Source: Ignavibacteriales bacterium
GTDB lineage: Bacteria > Bacteroidota > Ignavibacteria > UBA10030 > SZUA-254
Length of the DNA stretch: 10,272 nucleotides
Assembly (NCBI GenBank): GCA_016207985.1
Contig: JACQYX010000032.1
Coordinates: forward strand, 1-10,272
Direction: 5' to 3'
Shown: in pieces, positions 314 to 9,188 of the stretch
How the letters are laid out: every line of letters starts with the position of its first letter
Position numbering within the stretch: the first letter of the stretch is position 1
Made by a program: the position numbers and the translations under genes
The notes under the pieces: generated by a model
What the model was told of the DNA's origin: nothing
Database searches by the model: none
Seen by the model: only the letters and a program-made list of their open reading frames with translations

Positions 314-3208
314 ATGACAAAAATCGATCATCTTAAGATTGAAGATATTCATGGAAGCAGGATTAAAACGTTTCAGAAGCTGATGCGTTTTAAAATCCGG
401 GATATCCTGCTTGTTTCCAGTCTGTATGATAATTATCTTTTTGAGGAAGATGGTCGATTGTACGAGCTCATTCGTCAGGAATTTCAGGTTCTCAATCTCA
501 GTCACCCACCGGAAATTACTCACGTTACCGATGGAGTCGAGGCAATTGAATTGGCAGCGGTTGAAGAGCACTTTGATTTGATTATCACAACACTTCACAT
601 TGAAGATATGCATGTAACGAAGTTCGCCAAGGCGGTTCGTGAAGCAGGTTTAAAAACTCCTATCGTCGTTCTTGCATACGATAACAAGGAATTGCAAGAG
701 CTTATAGAGAATTATGATATATCGGTTTTCGAAAAAATATTCATCTGGCAGGGTGATTATCGTCTGCTGATAGGTATTATTAAATATCTCGAAGACAGGC
801 TGAACGTAGAGAACGATACGCTCTTGGTGGGTGTTCAGTCGATCATTCTTGTGGAAGACAATATTAAGTTTTATTCTTCATACCTTCCCCTTATCTATAC
901 AGAGATATTGAACCAATCGAAGCGCCTTATACTTGAAGGAATCAATGTAACTCACCGATTGTTAAGAACTCGGGCGAGACCGAAGATTCTTCTCTGTACA
1001 ACTTACGAAGAGGCATGGAATTATTTTGAGAAATATCAAGATTTCGTTCTTGGTGTTATCTCCGATGTCAGTTTTATACATAACAGTGTAAGGGATCCGG
1101 ATGCGGGATTCAGTTTTGCAAAGAACGTGATAAGCAAACATGCAGATATTCCCATTCTGCTTCAAACGAGCAGTACGGAACATGAGATGAAAGCAAAAGA
1201 GATTGGGGCGTCTTTCTTGTTGAAGAATTCACCGCGCCTCCTAAAAAATTTACGCCGTTTTATGATGAACAACTTCGGTTTCGGTGATTTCATCTTCCGC
1301 ACACCCGATGGAAAACAGGTTAGCCGCGCTCACGACCTTAAGACATTGGAAGAGCAGCTGCAGATTGTGCCTGTAGAGAGTATTCAATATCATGCCGAAC
1401 GTAACCACTTTTCAGTGTGGCTCAAAGCGAGAACTGAATTCTGGCTTGCCCATCGATTGCGTCCACGTAAAGTTTCGGATTTCGCATCCATTGAGGATCT
1501 TCGTCGTGAATTATTATGTTCCCTCAAACTTTATCGTGAGCTTCAGCAGCGGGGTATCATAACTGAATTCAATCCGGAAACGTTCGACCCGAAGAATAGT
1601 TTCGCCCGGGTCGGCGGCGGATCGCTTGGTGGGAAAGCCCGAGGTCTGGGATTTGTCAATCAATTGATCAGCAATTACAATATTCAGGACAAGTTTGCCG
1701 ACGTTGAGATCTCCGTTCCCTCGGCTATAGTAATTGCTACAGACGTGTTCGATCAGTTTTTAGATGAGAACCGACTCCATGATTTTGCCCTAAGTGCGAT
1801 CGAAGATGATGAAATCAAAAAGAGATTCTTAGAAGCTCCAAAGTTTTCAGAAGATATCAAAATAAAATTATCACAATTTCTCGAGATCATCCACGAGCCG
1901 TTGGCGGTTCGCTCGTCGAGTTTGTTGGAAGATTCCCAGTATCAGCCGTTTGCCGGAGTGTACCAGACGTTCATGATTCCGAATAATAACGCTTCGAAAG
2001 AAATACGCTTGCAGGAATTGCTTCAAAGTATCAAGTTAGTCTATGCTTCAACGTTCTTTCGCAAAGTTAAAGATTACATGAAGGCGACGTCTTACCGTTT
2101 GGAAGAAGAGAAAATGGCGGTCATCGTACAAAGGATGGTAGGTGCAGAACACAAAGGAAGGTTTTATCCGGATTTTGCAGGCGTTGCCAAATCGTATAAC
2201 TTTTATCCGGTCCCACCGCAAGCATCAGTCGATGGAATCGTTCTTGTTGCACTAGGACTCGGGAAAACTGTTGTTGAAGGAGGCAATACTGTTCGCTTTT
2301 GTCCTAAGTACCCCAGGCATCTCATGCAATTCTTTAATACTATAGAGACATTAAAAAATGCACAGCAAGACTTTTATGCTTTGAATCTCGCATATGGACT
2401 TGAGGATAATGGACACATATCGCCTGATAAGTTTGTTGAAAAATACGATATGGGTATCGCTGAAACGGATCAGACTTTGTTCTATGTCGGCTCAACATAT
2501 TCTACCGAAAATGAAACAGTCTATGACGGTATATCGCGAAGCGGGAAAAGAGTTGTAACGTTCGCACCAATCTTGAAGCATAAGATTTATCCACTTCCCG
2601 AGATACTTGAATTAATGCTGCGTTATGGAACGTGGGGAATAGGTACGCAAGTTGAGATTGAGTTCGCTGCTAACATGGACATCCCGCCCGCCAAGCCTAA
2701 AGAGTTTGCCATGCTCCAAATCAGACCTATGGTTCTGAGTCGTGAACTGGAAGAACTTGATGTTGAAAGAAATATAGAGGACCTTATTTGCCAAAGCCAG
2801 ATGGTACTTGGAAATGGATCGATAAAGAATATACACGACTTAGTATTCGTGGATATTGAAAAGTTCGATAGATCGAAAAGTAGAGACGTTTCAGAAGAAA
2901 TTAGTCAGATCAATTCAAAACTGATTGCTTTGAGAAAACCTTATATTCTCATTGAAGCGGGTTTTAAGGATATCAACGTCACGCCGTCTCAAGGATCGCA
3001 CTTTTTTCAGAACATAACATCGTTTAGGGTGGGATATTTTACGGTTGACTCGTCGAATCAATTGGGATTTATCGATTGGCATTGGCTGCGTTCTCAACAA
3101 GCCGTTGATGAATTCAATTATACACGTCATCTGAGCTTAAGTGCACCAATGACGATAAAGATCAATGGACATAAGAATAAGGGGATTATTTTGAAACCGG
3201 GGAAGTAG
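314..3208 (+). CDS. Tandem-receiver / PEP-synthase-like ATP-grasp protein, copy A
   Basis: Role unknown; a signalling or phosphotransfer protein is inferred. Residues about 30-165 look like a receiver fold that has lost its acidic pair (ILLVSSLYD) and phospho-aspartate (LIITTLH, 89-95). Residues about 176-320 form a second receiver with expected positions kept: E181/D182, D251 in VISDVSF, T285/S286 and K304. Residues about 430-807 match the PEP synthase/PPDK N-terminal ATP-grasp domain: GGGSLGGKARGLG (434-446), VRSSSLLED (532-540), FAGVY (546-550), VEIEFA (780-785) and LQIRP (801-805). The roughly 150-residue tail ends TIKINGHKNKGIILKPGK. No classical GG-(T/S)-(S/C)-H phospho-histidine motif or PEP-binding barrel is present. 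Relative to copy B, 28 residues are missing between I880 and E881. ATG 314 is the first start after an in-frame TGA at 302, and no Shine-Dalgarno is visible. It follows gdhA copy 1 by 132 bases. Confidence 0.85.
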   Translation: MTKIDHLKIEDIHGSRIKTFQKLMRFKIRDILLVSSLYDNYLFEEDGRLYELIRQEFQVLNLSHPPEITHVTDGVEAIELAAVEEHFDLIITTLHIEDMHVTKFAKAVREAGLKTPIVVLAYDNKELQELIENYDISVFEKIFIWQGDYRLLIGIIKYLEDRLNVENDTLLVGVQSIILVEDNIKFYSSYLPLIYTEILNQSKRLILEGINVTHRLLRTRARPKILLCTTYEEAWNYFEKYQDFVLGVISDVSFIHNSVRDPDAGFSFAKNVISKHADIPILLQTSSTEHEMKAKEIGASFLLKNSPRLLKNLRRFMMNNFGFGDFIFRTPDGKQVSRAHDLKTLEEQLQIVPVESIQYHAERNHFSVWLKARTEFWLAHRLRPRKVSDFASIEDLRRELLCSLKLYRELQQRGIITEFNPETFDPKNSFARVGGGSLGGKARGLGFVNQLISNYNIQDKFADVEISVPSAIVIATDVFDQFLDENRLHDFALSAIEDDEIKKRFLEAPKFSEDIKIKLSQFLEIIHEPLAVRSSSLLEDSQYQPFAGVYQTFMIPNNNASKEIRLQELLQSIKLVYASTFFRKVKDYMKATSYRLEEEKMAVIVQRMVGAEHKGRFYPDFAGVAKSYNFYPVPPQASVDGIVLVALGLGKTVVEGGNTVRFCPKYPRHLMQFFNTIETLKNAQQDFYALNLAYGLEDNGHISPDKFVEKYDMGIAETDQTLFYVGSTYSTENETVYDGISRSGKRVVTFAPILKHKIYPLPEILELMLRYGTWGIGTQVEIEFAANMDIPPAKPKEFAMLQIRPMVLSRELEELDVERNIEDLICQSQMVLGNGSIKNIHDLVFVDIEKFDRSKSRDVSEEISQINSKLIALRKPYILIEAGFKDINVTPSQGSHFFQNITSFRVGYFTVDSSNQLGFIDWHWLRSQQAVDEFNYTRHLSLSAPMTIKINGHKNKGIILKPGK
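1432..1570 (+). repeat. Pair of 10-bp direct repeats inside copy A
   Basis: AACTGAATTC occurs at 1432-1441 and again at 1561-1570. The two start points are 129 bases (43 codons) apart, so recombination between them would stay in frame. They lie inside the segment that copy B lacks, at codons for TEF in both places. The repeat may be chance at this length, and the junction in copy B does not correspond exactly to recombination at these sites. Confidence 0.35.
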
Positions 3209-3364: not shown

Positions 3365-4726
3365 ATGTCCGAATACGTAAAAGAATTAATGGCAATGGTA
3401 AAGGCGAAAAATCCGGCAGAACCTGAGTTTCATCAGGCAGTGCAGGAAGTTGCTGAATCACTTGCTTTAGTGTTCGAGCGCCATCCGGAATATCGCACAG
3501 CGAAAATTTTGGAGCGAATAATTGAACCTGAACGTGTAATTTTGTTCCGCGTACCATGGGTCGATAGCAAAGGTGATGTTCATGTCAATCGTGGATTCCG
3601 CATTGAAATGAACAGTGCAATCGGTCCGTATAAAGGTGGATTACGATTCCATCCATCCGTCAATCTTGGAATACTAAAATTCTTGGCATTCGAGCAAGTA
3701 TTTAAGAACAGCCTGACGACGCTCCCTATGGGCGGAGGTAAAGGTGGATCAGATTTCGATCCCAAGGGAAAGAGTGATGTAGATGTTATGCGATTTTGCC
3801 AAGCTTTCATGAGCGAGTTACAGCGACATATTGGTCCCGATACCGATGTACCGGCAGGTGATATAGGCGTAGGCGGTCGTGAAATCGGCTTCATGTTTGG
3901 TCAGTATAAAAAATTAAGAAACGAATTCACCGGTGTTCTTACCGGAAAGGGTTTAAATTGGGGTGGTTCACTCATTCGTCCGGAAGCAACTGGATATGGT
4001 GCAGTTTACTTCGCTGCTGAAATGTTAGGTACTCGGAAACAAACACTCGAGGGGAAAAAATGCTTAGTCTCTGGCAGCGGAAACGTTGCTCAATATACCG
4101 TCGAGAAAATAAATCAGCTCGGTGGTAAAGCAGTTACCCTATCCGATTCGAATGGTTATATCTATGATGAAGCTGGAATTTCACCCGAGAAGCTGGCATT
4201 CGTTATGGAATTGAAAAATGTTCGCCGTGGAAGAATAAAAGAAGATGCTGATAAATACAAATCAGCAGTTTACGCACCGCTCACCGGCAAAGAAGATGCT
4301 AATCCCCTTTGGAACCGCAAAGCAGATTGTGCATTCCCAAGCGCTACACAAAATGAAATCAACGATAAGGATGCACAGAACCTTGTGAAGAATGGTGTCT
4401 ATGTGGTTAGCGAAGGTGCAAATATGCCGACTACTATCGATGGCGTTAATGTATTTCTAAACGCTAAGATTCTCTATGGTCCCGGTAAGGCTGCCAATGC
4501 AGGTGGCGTTGCTACCTCAGGCTTAGAGATGTCGCAGAACAGCATGCGGATGTCATGGACGCGAGAAGAAGTGGATAATAAATTACATCATATTATGAAA
4601 AGTATTCATAAGACTTGTGTAACAATTGCAGATCGCTTCGGTACTCCGGGTAACTATGTAAACGGGGCGAATATCGGCGGCTTCCTGAAAGTTGCTGATG
4701 CTATGATGGATCAGGGTGTTGTGTAA
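3365..4726 (+). CDS. gdhA: NADP-type glutamate dehydrogenase (gdhA copy 2)
   Basis: Hexameric cytoplasmic enzyme expected to form glutamate from 2-oxoglutarate, ammonia and NADPH. At 453 residues it is close to the usual length of about 450 for this family (E. coli GdhA 447). Visible motifs in order: VPWVDSKGDVHVNRGFRI (63-80), substrate-pocket lysine K90 in GPYKGGLRFHP, PMGGGKGGSDFDP with K126, PAGDIGVGGREIG with the catalytic aspartate near D166, Rossmann loop GSGNVAQ (237-243), SDSNG (260-264), and the C-terminal GNYVNGANIGGFLKVADAMMDQG. All key residues I can place are present, so the enzyme should be active. The NADP preference comes from the family, not from a decisive residue. The start is fixed by AGGAGA 5 bases upstream. 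It lies 156 bases after copy A and 152 before copy B, mirroring gdhA copy 1 and copy A. Confidence 0.97.
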   Translation: MSEYVKELMAMVKAKNPAEPEFHQAVQEVAESLALVFERHPEYRTAKILERIIEPERVILFRVPWVDSKGDVHVNRGFRIEMNSAIGPYKGGLRFHPSVNLGILKFLAFEQVFKNSLTTLPMGGGKGGSDFDPKGKSDVDVMRFCQAFMSELQRHIGPDTDVPAGDIGVGGREIGFMFGQYKKLRNEFTGVLTGKGLNWGGSLIRPEATGYGAVYFAAEMLGTRKQTLEGKKCLVSGSGNVAQYTVEKINQLGGKAVTLSDSNGYIYDEAGISPEKLAFVMELKNVRRGRIKEDADKYKSAVYAPLTGKEDANPLWNRKADCAFPSATQNEINDKDAQNLVKNGVYVVSEGANMPTTIDGVNVFLNAKILYGPGKAANAGGVATSGLEMSQNSMRMSWTREEVDNKLHHIMKSIHKTCVTIADRFGTPGNYVNGANIGGFLKVADAMMDQGVV

Positions 4727-4878: not shown

Positions 4879-7737
4879 ATGAAAACTAATTTTGATGAAC
4901 GGGTAAATCCACTTGATTCTCTCTGGGTCGAGCACGGGTATGGAAATCGTTTTCAAGGTTTTCAGAATCTGATGCGTTTAAGAATCAGTGATGTCTTACT
5001 CGTATCCAGTCTTTATGATTTATATCTTTTCGAAGAAGACGGTAGACTTTACGAGCTTATCCGCCATGAGTATGAAGGTTTTAATCTTAGTCATCCACCC
5101 GAATTAACGCGTGTTTCCAGCGGGGACGAGGCGATTGCTCTCGCAAAAGAGGAGAATCGGTTTAATCTTATTATTACAACACTTCATATCGATGATATGC
5201 ACGCATTAGATTTTGCTAAGTTAGTTAAGCAATCAGGATTGAATATTCCAATTGTACTCCTTGCCCACGATAATCGGGAGTTGAAATATTTACTCTTGAA
5301 TCATGATACAACGGTGTTTGATAAAATTTTCGTATGGCAGGGAGATTTCCGCATCATTATTGCCATAATAAAATATTTAGAAGATCGGATAAATGTAGAA
5401 CACGATACCAATATCGTCGGTATTCAAACAATTATCGTAGTTGAAGATAACGTGCGGTATTATTCTTCTTTTCTCCCAATCATCTACACAGAAATTCTCA
5501 AACAATCTCAGCGATTGATTTCAGAAGGTATTAATCTCACACATAAATTCTTACGTATGAGGGCACGTCCTAAAATCCTTTTATGCTCAACGTATGAAGA
5601 GGTATCGAAATATTATCAAAAATATAAAGATTTCATGCTGGGTGTTATATCGGATATCGATTTTCCGCGGGATGGAGTACAAGACTCCAAGGCGGGAATC
5701 GAATTTGCAAAAAGTGTGAAAGATGATCAACCCGATCTACCTGTATTATTACTTTCAAACAATATTGATAGTCAATCGGTTGCCCGTGGTACAGGTGCAT
5801 CATTTATCCTCAAAGAATCTCCGATGCTCCTCAACGAGCTGCGTAAATTCATGATTCAATATTTCAGCTTCGGTGACTTCATTTTTCGCACACCTGAGGG
5901 TATCGAAGTAGGACGGGCAACAGATTTAAAAAGTCTGGAGGAACAAATCAAAGCGGTTCCAGAGGAAAGTCTCCGTTACCATGGTGAACGAAATCATTTT
6001 TCAAATGTTAAAGAGACGTTCGATCCGGAAAGCAGCGTCGCGCGGATCGGCGGCGGTTCTTTAGGTGGAAAAGCGCGAGGTCTGGGCTTCGTAAACACGC
6101 TTATCAACGACTACAATGTTCGCGATAGATATGATGGTATTACGATCTCTGTCCCCGCTGCAGTTGTGATTGGCACAGATATTTTTGACCAGTTCCTCGA
6201 GGAAAATAATCTTCGTGACTTTGCGTTCAATTGTACCGATGACAGGGAGATAACAAAGAAATTTTTAGAAGCATCAAGATTCCCGGAAGAAATATTGGGA
6301 GAGCTTGTTGCTTTTTTAGATATTATTCGAACACCGCTTGCCGTGCGTTCATCCAGCTTACTTGAGGATTCTCAATATCACCCGTTTGCCGGTGTGTACG
6401 AAACTTATATGATTCCCAATAATCATCTTAATCCGCTGGTAAGATTAAATGATTTGTTAAACAGCATCAAGCGAGTGTATGCTTCAACTTTCTACCGAAG
6501 TGCGAAAGATTACATCAAGATCACTTCATATCGTCTTGAAGAAGAGAAGATGGCGGTGATTGTTCAGAAGCTGGTTGGCACTGCTCATGAAGATCGTTTC
6601 TATCCCGATATTTCTGGTGTTGCTAAATCGTATAACTTTTATCCTTTACCATCAGTGAAACCCACCGATGGTACCGTATCTGTTGCATTGGGTTTGGGGA
6701 AAACTGTAGTCGATGGTGGAAACACTGTCCGATTTTGCCCAAAGTACCCATCCGATCTAATCCAATTCTATTCAGTCAAGGAGGCACTAAATACCACACA
6801 GCATGATTTTTTCGCTTTGCAGTTAGATGCAAGCTCTGATTTCGGATTTGAAACTTATGATATGTCGGTTAAACAACATGGATTAGATGTTGCAGAGAAA
6901 GACGGACCATTGTATTATGTCGGCTCGACATATTCAGCGGAAAGCGATTCAATTTCGGAAGGGTTGAGCAGGCAGGGTGCAAGGGTTGTAACATTTGCGC
7001 CAATCTTAAAGAGTAAATTATTTCCTCTTGCACCTATCCTCGAGCTTTTGTTGGACATGGGAACATGGGGAATGGGTACACCTGTCGAGATTGAATTTGC
7101 AGTTTGTATGAAACCACAGAATGGAGCCGCAAAAGAATTTGGTCTTTTGCAAATGCGCCCGCTGGTTGTTCATCGTGAACCGGAAGAATTAGAAATCGAG
7201 AAGTATGATCAGTCGGAATTACTTTGTCAGAGCAATCAGGTGCTCGGTAATGGAGTCATCGAAGATATTTATGATATCGTTATCGTTGATTATCAACTGT
7301 TTGAACGCGCAAAAAGCAGAGATGTTGCTAAGGAAGTCAGTATGTTGAATGCCAGATTGATGTCCGAACATATTCCTTATCTCCTGATCGGGATTGGTCG
7401 TTGGGGTACTTTAGATCCATGGCTCGGTATTCCCGTGAACTGGGAACAGATTGCAGGTGCACGTGTCATCATAGAAGCGGGGATGAAAGATATGATAGTG
7501 ACACCATCACAAGGGTCACACTTTTTTCAAAACATCACATCATTTAACGTCGGTTATTTCACCGTGAACCCCGAGAATCAACAAGGGTATCTCGATTGGG
7601 ATTGGTTATTAAAACAAAATTCAAAAGAAGTTATGGCATATACTAGGCATATTCGATTTAATAAACCACTCACTATCAAAATTAATGGGCATAAATCCAA
7701 TGGAATAATTTTGAAACCGGAGGTGGAGCTTGAGTAA
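4879..7737 (+). CDS. Tandem-receiver / PEP-synthase-like ATP-grasp protein, copy B
   Basis: Paralogue of the protein at 314-3208, roughly 60% identical by eye, with the same order of parts and unknown reaction. The first receiver (about 38-173) is degenerate, with VSSLYD and LIITTLH replacing the acidic residues. The second (about 184-328) keeps E189/D190, D259, S293 and K312. The ATP-grasp domain (about 388-763) shows GGGSLGGKARGLG (391-403), VRSSSLLED (489-497), FAGVY (503-507), VEIEFA (736-741) and LQMRP (757-761). The tail keeps GRWGTLDPWLGIPV (840-853) and TPSQGSHFFQN (875-885), with conserved H881. The classical PEP-synthase histidine motif and PEP barrel are absent. The segment joining receiver 2 to ATP-grasp is about 51 residues shorter than in copy A: HFS at 373-375 runs almost straight into ETFDP at 379-383. 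ATG 4879 is the first start after an in-frame TAA at 4864. The 3' end carries the ribosome site of the next gene. Confidence 0.88.
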   Translation: MKTNFDERVNPLDSLWVEHGYGNRFQGFQNLMRLRISDVLLVSSLYDLYLFEEDGRLYELIRHEYEGFNLSHPPELTRVSSGDEAIALAKEENRFNLIITTLHIDDMHALDFAKLVKQSGLNIPIVLLAHDNRELKYLLLNHDTTVFDKIFVWQGDFRIIIAIIKYLEDRINVEHDTNIVGIQTIIVVEDNVRYYSSFLPIIYTEILKQSQRLISEGINLTHKFLRMRARPKILLCSTYEEVSKYYQKYKDFMLGVISDIDFPRDGVQDSKAGIEFAKSVKDDQPDLPVLLLSNNIDSQSVARGTGASFILKESPMLLNELRKFMIQYFSFGDFIFRTPEGIEVGRATDLKSLEEQIKAVPEESLRYHGERNHFSNVKETFDPESSVARIGGGSLGGKARGLGFVNTLINDYNVRDRYDGITISVPAAVVIGTDIFDQFLEENNLRDFAFNCTDDREITKKFLEASRFPEEILGELVAFLDIIRTPLAVRSSSLLEDSQYHPFAGVYETYMIPNNHLNPLVRLNDLLNSIKRVYASTFYRSAKDYIKITSYRLEEEKMAVIVQKLVGTAHEDRFYPDISGVAKSYNFYPLPSVKPTDGTVSVALGLGKTVVDGGNTVRFCPKYPSDLIQFYSVKEALNTTQHDFFALQLDASSDFGFETYDMSVKQHGLDVAEKDGPLYYVGSTYSAESDSISEGLSRQGARVVTFAPILKSKLFPLAPILELLLDMGTWGMGTPVEIEFAVCMKPQNGAAKEFGLLQMRPLVVHREPEELEIEKYDQSELLCQSNQVLGNGVIEDIYDIVIVDYQLFERAKSRDVAKEVSMLNARLMSEHIPYLLIGIGRWGTLDPWLGIPVNWEQIAGARVIIEAGMKDMIVTPSQGSHFFQNITSFNVGYFTVNPENQQGYLDWDWLLKQNSKEVMAYTRHIRFNKPLTIKINGHKSNGIILKPEVELE
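7719..7723 (+). promoter_or_regulatory. Ribosome binding site for the zinc-ribbon gene, inside copy B
   Basis: GGAGG, within CCGGAGGTGG, lies in the last codons of copy B and 6 bases before TTG 7730. It is the strongest Shine-Dalgarno in the window and is what makes the TTG start credible. Its position implies that ribosomes finishing copy B sit next to the start of the small gene, so their translation is probably coupled. Confidence 0.75.
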
Positions 7738-7921
7738 AAAATCAAATAACGAACGACAACAAAAAGTATACGATTCATGTCCGCATTGCGGGCATGATTT
7801 AAGTCCATGGGAAAAAGTACTCTTAGGAGTTGATCGGGCTTTAACATGTAAGCATTGCTGGTATCGTATTTTATTAGACAGTGCGAAGAGTGATCAAAAG
7901 CCATCCCAGGAAAATAAATAA
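7730..7921 (+). CDS. Small zinc-ribbon protein, 63 residues
   Basis: A short soluble protein with two CxxC knuckles: CPHC (C17, C20) and CKHC (C40, C43), separated by 19 residues. This spacing fits a single structural zinc ribbon. Both knuckles have an internal His, and the flanks are charged (KKSNNERQQK at the start, a Lys/Gln/Glu-rich tail). No signal peptide or membrane segment is visible. I do not recognise the family and give no function; zinc-dependent protein or nucleic-acid contact is a guess. The start is TTG 7730 with GGAGG 6 bases upstream, giving an 8-base overlap with copy B. The next gene starts 19 bases after its stop. The tight packing suggests it is co-expressed with copy B and the following glutamate dehydrogenase. 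Copy A has no equivalent small gene after it. Confidence 0.78.
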   Translation: MSKKSNNERQQKVYDSCPHCGHDLSPWEKVLLGVDRALTCKHCWYRILLDSAKSDQKPSQENK

Positions 7922-7926
7922 CAACC

Positions 7927-7931
7927 AAAGG
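7927..7931 (+). promoter_or_regulatory. Ribosome site choosing the start at 7941
   Basis: AAAGG stands 9 bases before ATG 7941. The same frame is open back to an ATG at 7881, but that start would overlap the zinc-ribbon gene by 41 bases and add a basic, low-complexity 20-residue extension unlike the family's N-terminus. This weak site plus family length favour 7941. Confidence 0.5.
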
Positions 7932-7940
7932 TTTAATGAT

Positions 7941-9188
7941 ATGGAATCTTACAATTCGTTTAATGTTGCACAGAAACAAATATTAGATGCAGCAAAGATA
8001 CTCAACCTTGATGCAGCCACAATTGATTTACTATCGTGGCCCCAGAACGAAGTTAAATTTACTATTCCCGTGAGAATGGATAATGGCAGTGTGAAAATAT
8101 TTCACGCCTGGCGAATTCGATACAACACGGCACGTGGACCAGCGAAGGGTGGAATTCGATTTCATCCCGATGAAACAGTTGATACGATCCGTGCATTAGC
8201 ATGTTGGATGACGTGGAAAACTGCTGTCGTTGATCTTCCTCTTGGTGGTGGCAAAGGAGGAGTTCTTTGCGATCCAAAATCAATGTCGTTGAGGGAATTA
8301 GAAAATCTTTCGCGCGGCTACATCAGAGGTGTTGCAGAACATTTAGGTATCGATAAAGATATTCCCGCACCGGATGTCTATACAAACCCACAGACCATGG
8401 TATGGATGATGGATGAGTATGAAACGATCGTTCATCGCCATCAACCCGGCGTGTTAACCGATAAACCGCTGCAGGTTGGGGGAACGCAAGGTCGTCGCGA
8501 TGCAACTGCTCGTGGTGGTGTTGTGACAGTTGGTGAAGCTTGTAAAATTCTCGGTGTGAATCCGAAGGGGAAGTATGCAATACAAGGATTCGGAAACGCG
8601 GGTCAGCGTGCAGCACTTCTTCATCAGGAATTACTAGGTGGCGGAACACTCGTTGCAGTGAGTGATTCACGCGGGGCAATTTACAATCCCAAAGGATTTA
8701 ATCCAAAAGAATTGGTTACATACAAGCTGACCTCCGGCTCTATTGTTGGTTTTCCAGGATCGGCACCGATTTCCCATGACGATGTTCTCGAAGCAGACGT
8801 CGAAGTATTATATCCTGCTGCGCTCGAAAATTCAATCAGTGAACGAAATGCATCTAAGATAAAAGCAAAAATTGTTTGTGAGCTTGCCAACGGTCCAACT
8901 ACCCCGGAAGCCGATGAGATTCTTTATAATAATCGTGTGCATGTTATTCCCGATATTCTTGCGAGTGCTGGTGGTGTCACTGTTTCTTACTTTGAGATGG
9001 TCCAAGATAGTTATTCGTTCTTCTGGGATGAAGATGTTGTGCATCAGCGGCTCGATCAAAAATTAACAAAGGCATATCATTCAGTTCAAGAAGCGATTAA
9101 AGAAAAGAAGGTACATCCACGATTAGCAGCGATGATCGTGGGAGTTGCGCGTGTGGCAGAAGCTTGTAAACTTCGTGGCTGGGTATAG
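7941..9188 (+). CDS. Glutamate dehydrogenase, RocG/GudB-type (Glu/Leu/Phe/Val dehydrogenase family)
   Basis: Cytoplasmic oxidoreductase expected to deaminate glutamate to 2-oxoglutarate and ammonia, probably with NAD. It has 415 residues from the chosen start, close to RocG/GudB (about 424). Motifs: YNTARGPAKGGIRFHP with K69, LPLGGGKGGVLCDP with K105, DIPAPDVYTNP with catalytic D145, GVLTDKPLQVGGTQGRRDATARG (two blocks near 170-192), Rossmann loop GFGNAG (216-221), VSDSRG (240-245), and ASAGGVTVSYFE (341-352), whose serine is the usual glutamate-side-chain contact. The GG-(S/T)-x-GR block and that serine favour glutamate over leucine or phenylalanine. NAD preference is inferred from family resemblance. 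It belongs to a different subfamily from the two gdhA genes, so the cell has both types side by side. It follows the zinc-ribbon gene by 19 bases and is probably co-transcribed with copy B. Confidence 0.95.
   Translation: MESYNSFNVAQKQILDAAKILNLDAATIDLLSWPQNEVKFTIPVRMDNGSVKIFHAWRIRYNTARGPAKGGIRFHPDETVDTIRALACWMTWKTAVVDLPLGGGKGGVLCDPKSMSLRELENLSRGYIRGVAEHLGIDKDIPAPDVYTNPQTMVWMMDEYETIVHRHQPGVLTDKPLQVGGTQGRRDATARGGVVTVGEACKILGVNPKGKYAIQGFGNAGQRAALLHQELLGGGTLVAVSDSRGAIYNPKGFNPKELVTYKLTSGSIVGFPGSAPISHDDVLEADVEVLYPAALENSISERNASKIKAKIVCELANGPTTPEADEILYNNRVHVIPDILASAGGVTVSYFEMVQDSYSFFWDEDVVHQRLDQKLTKAYHSVQEAIKEKKVHPRLAAMIVGVARVAEACKLRGWV

Follow-up and report, generated by a model that had tools for sequence, protein, structure and literature searches.

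Neighbouring in-frame losses in two PPDK_N-domain paralogues of an Ignavibacteriales draft genome are probably silent assembly misjoins

The window, a stretch of 10,272 nucleotides from an Ignavibacteriales draft genome (G000), contains two paralogous genes, copy A and copy B, whose products are 61% identical, together with two genes of the glutamate dehydrogenase (GDH) family (Table 1). The true start of the second GDH family gene is likely an ATG ~20 codons into the listed frame. At the left end of the window, positions 1-184 match the end of a further GDH family gene that lies upstream of copy A in a related genome, G005. Among the matches listed, a GDH family gene shares the stretch with a gene of the A/B family in 66 of 78 named loci, and a frequent order at these loci (L075-L152) is GDH-kinase-GDH-kinase-GDH. 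This co-occurrence possibly reflects a functional link. A search of the Ignavibacteria literature with protein terms returned no title or abstract that treats the copy A/B family or its link to GDH.

Table 1 Genes, blocks and joints in the window
Feature	Position	Strand	Description
Copy A	314..3208	+	964 aa; receiver-like domains, PPDK_N ATP-grasp domain, conserved tail
51-residue block	1418..1570	+	Present in copy A and all scored relatives, missing in copy B
Copy A joint	2953..2954	+	84 nt, equal to 28 tail-domain residues, missing
Glutamate dehydrogenase family gene	3365..4726	+	Between copies A and B; frame open throughout
Copy B	4879..7737	+	952 aa; paralogue of copy A
Copy B joint	6006..6007	+	153 nt, equal to 51 residues, missing
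28-residue block GIGRWGTLDPWLGIPVNWEQIAGARVII	7390..7473	+	Present in copy B
Second glutamate dehydrogenase family gene	7881..9188	+	After copy B; open frame as listed

Both copies match the PPDK_N ATP-grasp domain (PF01326; E 2.9e-35 in A and 1.4e-36 in B), and their N-terminal parts score 28.0 bits (A) and 32.5 bits (B) against Pfam Response_reg, whose cut-off is 30.2. These two were the only Pfam models matched by A and B; neither a PEP/pyruvate-binding barrel nor a PEP-utilizer domain was found, and NCBIfam equivalog cut-offs were missed by far (for example, 52.5 versus 739.75 bits). The conserved tail matches no Pfam model. It carries an invariant SQG[S/T]H motif (2987-3013 in copy A; copy B has it too), and its histidine is invariant in 117 of 117 sequences, as are six positions of the ATP-grasp domain in 120 of 120. 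Foldseek gave no match for the tail alone at E ≤ 0.001, and the resemblance of the tail fold to the phosphoryl-carrier domains of PPDK, which came only from a second look with VIA-align 2, has a Z level reachable by chance. According to the tail model, the 28-residue block would span parts of two core strands. The 51-residue block is helical and precedes the ATP-grasp domain; it overlaps the region that matches DUF5752 in an intact relative, and a literature search for DUF5752 found nothing.

In copy A, P-Y-I-L-I is followed directly by E-A-G-F-K-D, the last base of I880 being 2953 and the first of E881 being 2954, while copy B has the 28 residues between flanks equivalent to those of A. The difference is exactly 84 nt and in frame, which confirms the observation of a sequence-only reading of the window that A lacks 28 residues kept by B. 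That reading also described the flanks as aligning without a gap. This holds near the block but not over the whole gene: copy B has a 51-residue loss of its own, which was overlooked, and there are two single-residue indels. Slippage at a TCAT-like sequence near both edges of the block had been proposed as a possible origin of the loss. In copy B, TCAT is present at the right edge only (GTCATCATA|GAA), the left edge being CTCCTGATC|GGG, and no direct repeat in register that lies within 15 nt of the edges exceeds 2 nt, either in copy B or in the orthologues from G005. A TCAT repeat as the site of replication slippage is thus rejected for these sequences, which served as stand-ins for a true ancestor that may differ.

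To establish the direction of the change, we used the family survey. A search of 60 genomes, the window's own included, gave 36 with a match, further stretches were added, and named bacterial and archaeal genomes, when scanned, gave at least 78 loci from Ignavibacteria, Calditrichota, KSB1 and others, nearly all of them titled MAG. Besides A and B, at least 132 members of the family were collected; the 118 whose open frames reach at least 850 aa were aligned and 14 shorter fragments were left out. The aligned set contains one gene twice (L041 and L078) and one further pair with 99% identity. Among the matches listed, the 28-residue block is present in all 115 relatives whose two flanks can be read (114 groups at 99% identity), A type and B type alike; in the other three of the 118, one flank extends past the end of the contig or locus. 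The 51-residue block is present in all 118 relatives (116 groups) among the matches listed, and also in copy A. The homologue alignment that the sequence-only reading had suggested as a check thus found the block, which it had called conserved, to be highly so, and no scored homologue lacks it. The record as deposited indicates a loss in A and not an insertion in B, because the block is kept in every scorable relative.

The two losses are also exceptional in size. An internal gap of at least 8 core columns occurs in one of the 118 relatives (16 columns, at a different place) and none has a gap of 20 or more; five have gaps at the ends only. A and B each carry a longer internal gap than any of them. 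Two private losses in neighbouring genes of one genome suggest a cause in that genome or in its assembly, and an assembly misjoin would be expected to leave losses private to one assembly, as both are among the scored relatives. Family genes of four other drafts (L050, L052, L054 and L032) are each divided between two open frames, with the break at differing places, which could reflect either decay or errors.

The draft G000 comprises 1.97 Mb in 385 contigs and is 61% complete. We sampled 61 of its contigs, among them that of the window (325,948 bases; 8 wholly N and 53 readable), and compared them in both directions with 1,173,164 bases, about a third of the genome, of G005, which has the closest orthologues of A and B found among the matches listed (BLAST 82% and 80%, respectively). 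The background rate of losses accordingly refers to this one relative. Losses were counted after removal of overlapping open frames, antisense frames having been included in earlier scans. At ≥ 70% identity, 5 of 28 G005 genes show losses in G000 free of N (84, 153, 311, 149 and 107 nt), and the reverse comparison gave none in 30 genes. At ≥ 55% identity, nine clean, N-free losses of 84-343 nt were found in 8 of 54 genes, against none of 59 in reverse; two of the nine lie on weaker alignments (L189, 56% identity; L175, one flank 43%). Four of the losses are in frame (84, 153, 135 and 102 nt) and five are out of frame (343, 311, 149, 107 and 116 nt). With the window excluded, two of seven are in frame, close to the one third given by chance. 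Losses elsewhere in the assembly, with no bias of frame and with none in the relative, are what misjoins would produce. The comparison indicates that the draft silently leaves out 84-343 nt in roughly one sampled gene in seven. A possible further loss of 80 nt (L066) and an in-frame one of 69 nt (L246, 48% identity) were left out of the count by the overlap filter or the 55% limit. Other breaks, likewise not among the nine, are of 5 and 1 nt (L058 and L173) or fall at N runs, where L058 lacks 56 nt and L064 has 41 extra.

Genes of the cell's core are among those affected. Curated models identify the intact relatives of three affected genes as SMC, B12-dependent ribonucleotide reductase (NrdJ) and FabF; those of two others had no curated model match at E 1e-20. 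The clean losses that affect these three genes, and one gene whose product has no curated model, lie on contigs L062, L242, L252 and L244. In the whole of G000, each of the three core genes is found solely as a broken copy, SMC without profile positions 424-460 and 873-984, NrdJ without 99-184 and FabF without 137-165. This profile evidence is independent of G005. The model search of the whole genome found no intact copy of any of the three; at 61% completeness, such copies could be missing from the draft. By score, two additional weak matches to SMC (E 3e-5 and 4e-4) do not represent SMC copies.

Gaps that the assembly does mark with N are unreliable in size. In the readable G000 contigs there are 11 runs of N, each between 1 and 168 letters long; a search for tandem duplications at joints, its output swamped by N runs, served only to show that the assembly has them. 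Four of the 11 could be placed on G005, and all four are mis-sized: 1 N stands for ~63 nt, 42 for ~1, 27 for ~-15 and 55 for ~5, the last placed on flanks of < 50% identity. Where gap sizes are off by tens of bases, some gaps could plausibly have been set to zero.

We conclude, with a probability of about 0.88 that rests on sequence comparison, that both losses, the 84 nt in A and the 153 nt in B, stem from silent local misjoins in the assembly. The sequence-only reading had named an assembly error as the point to exclude, and it is now the favoured explanation. Two correctly assembled ends would have been set directly together with no N run, and the real bases between them omitted; both joints would be in frame by chance, and so would look like biological in-frame deletions. 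The two joints themselves we attribute, by inference, to the assembler or scaffolder, and most likely the organism's real copy A still carries the 28-residue block. Several observations count against misjoins. First, both joints in the window are exactly in frame, a coincidence with a probability of 1 in 9, although this very property was why the finding was selected. Second, a false join of short reads usually needs a shared k-mer, and no long in-register repeat is present at the joints. Third, two premature stops lie in well-conserved frames of other sampled genes.

The stops bear on the reading that both losses are real and recent, with A and B, or those of one strain in the sample, turning into pseudogenes in a decaying lineage. 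Five stops were found inside the 28 genes, and three in 30 genes in the reverse comparison. Two of the five are close to where the open frame begins and probably precede the start codon, and one is at the extreme edge of the alignment. The remaining two, at NrdJ codon 712 and in one L244 gene, are the ones in well-conserved frames; they fit either base errors or real decay. Decay would also account for losses spread over many genes, in and out of frame. Against it, decay would have broken SMC, ribonucleotide reductase and FabF, of which no further copy turned up in a genome 61% complete, and the N gaps of the same assembly are wrong in size wherever checked. Moreover, A and B are constrained outside their losses, with pN against G005 of 0.109 and 0.098 and pS of ~0.80, which is near saturation, hence we give no dN/dS ratio; codon rates near the joint were unused because the codons are too few. 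On this evidence we consider decay unlikely.

The sequence-only reading had instead proposed a real 84-base in-frame deletion that made A a catalytically altered paralogue, and a regulatory one is conceivable too, with B as the working copy. The loss does keep the reading frame, and conservation marks both the deleted block and the rest of A, the latter down to the invariant ATP-grasp positions and tail histidine. But B itself lacks another conserved block, no scored relative shares the loss, and unrelated genes of the same assembly, core genes included, carry similar clean losses; a folded variant is also improbable if, as modelled, the block contributes to two core strands. A misjoin explains the joint better than an altered paralogue because clean losses occur elsewhere, five of the nine are out of frame and core genes are broken. 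The proposal is thus not supported, and we regard it as very unlikely. We give slightly less credence still to both losses being real and the paralogues working solely as a complementary pair, A without part of the tail domain and B without the helical block. That the 28-residue block is an insertion in copy B has next to no probability, as no point in its favour was found and the surveyed relatives of both types rule it out.

Silent misjoins, our preferred explanation, have a practical consequence: clean in-frame absences in draft genomes can be mistaken for enzyme evolution. With silent omissions indicated in 8 of the 54 sampled genes, an in-frame loss in G000 should not be read as biology unless it is supported by reads.

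The proteins themselves share the N-terminal ATP-grasp domain with PEP synthase and pyruvate phosphate dikinase. Unlike these enzymes and rifampin phosphotransferase, A and B carry receiver-like domains in front. As for the assembly, uncurated genomes from metagenomes are described as having local assembly errors and gaps that lead to incomplete or incorrect protein-coding sequences in databases (PMC7111523). The present draft likewise has N gaps and probable wrong local joins. The cases described there include consensus that lacks support and Ns set where ends in fact overlap, in contrast to the silent omission of 84-343 nt that we infer for this assembly.
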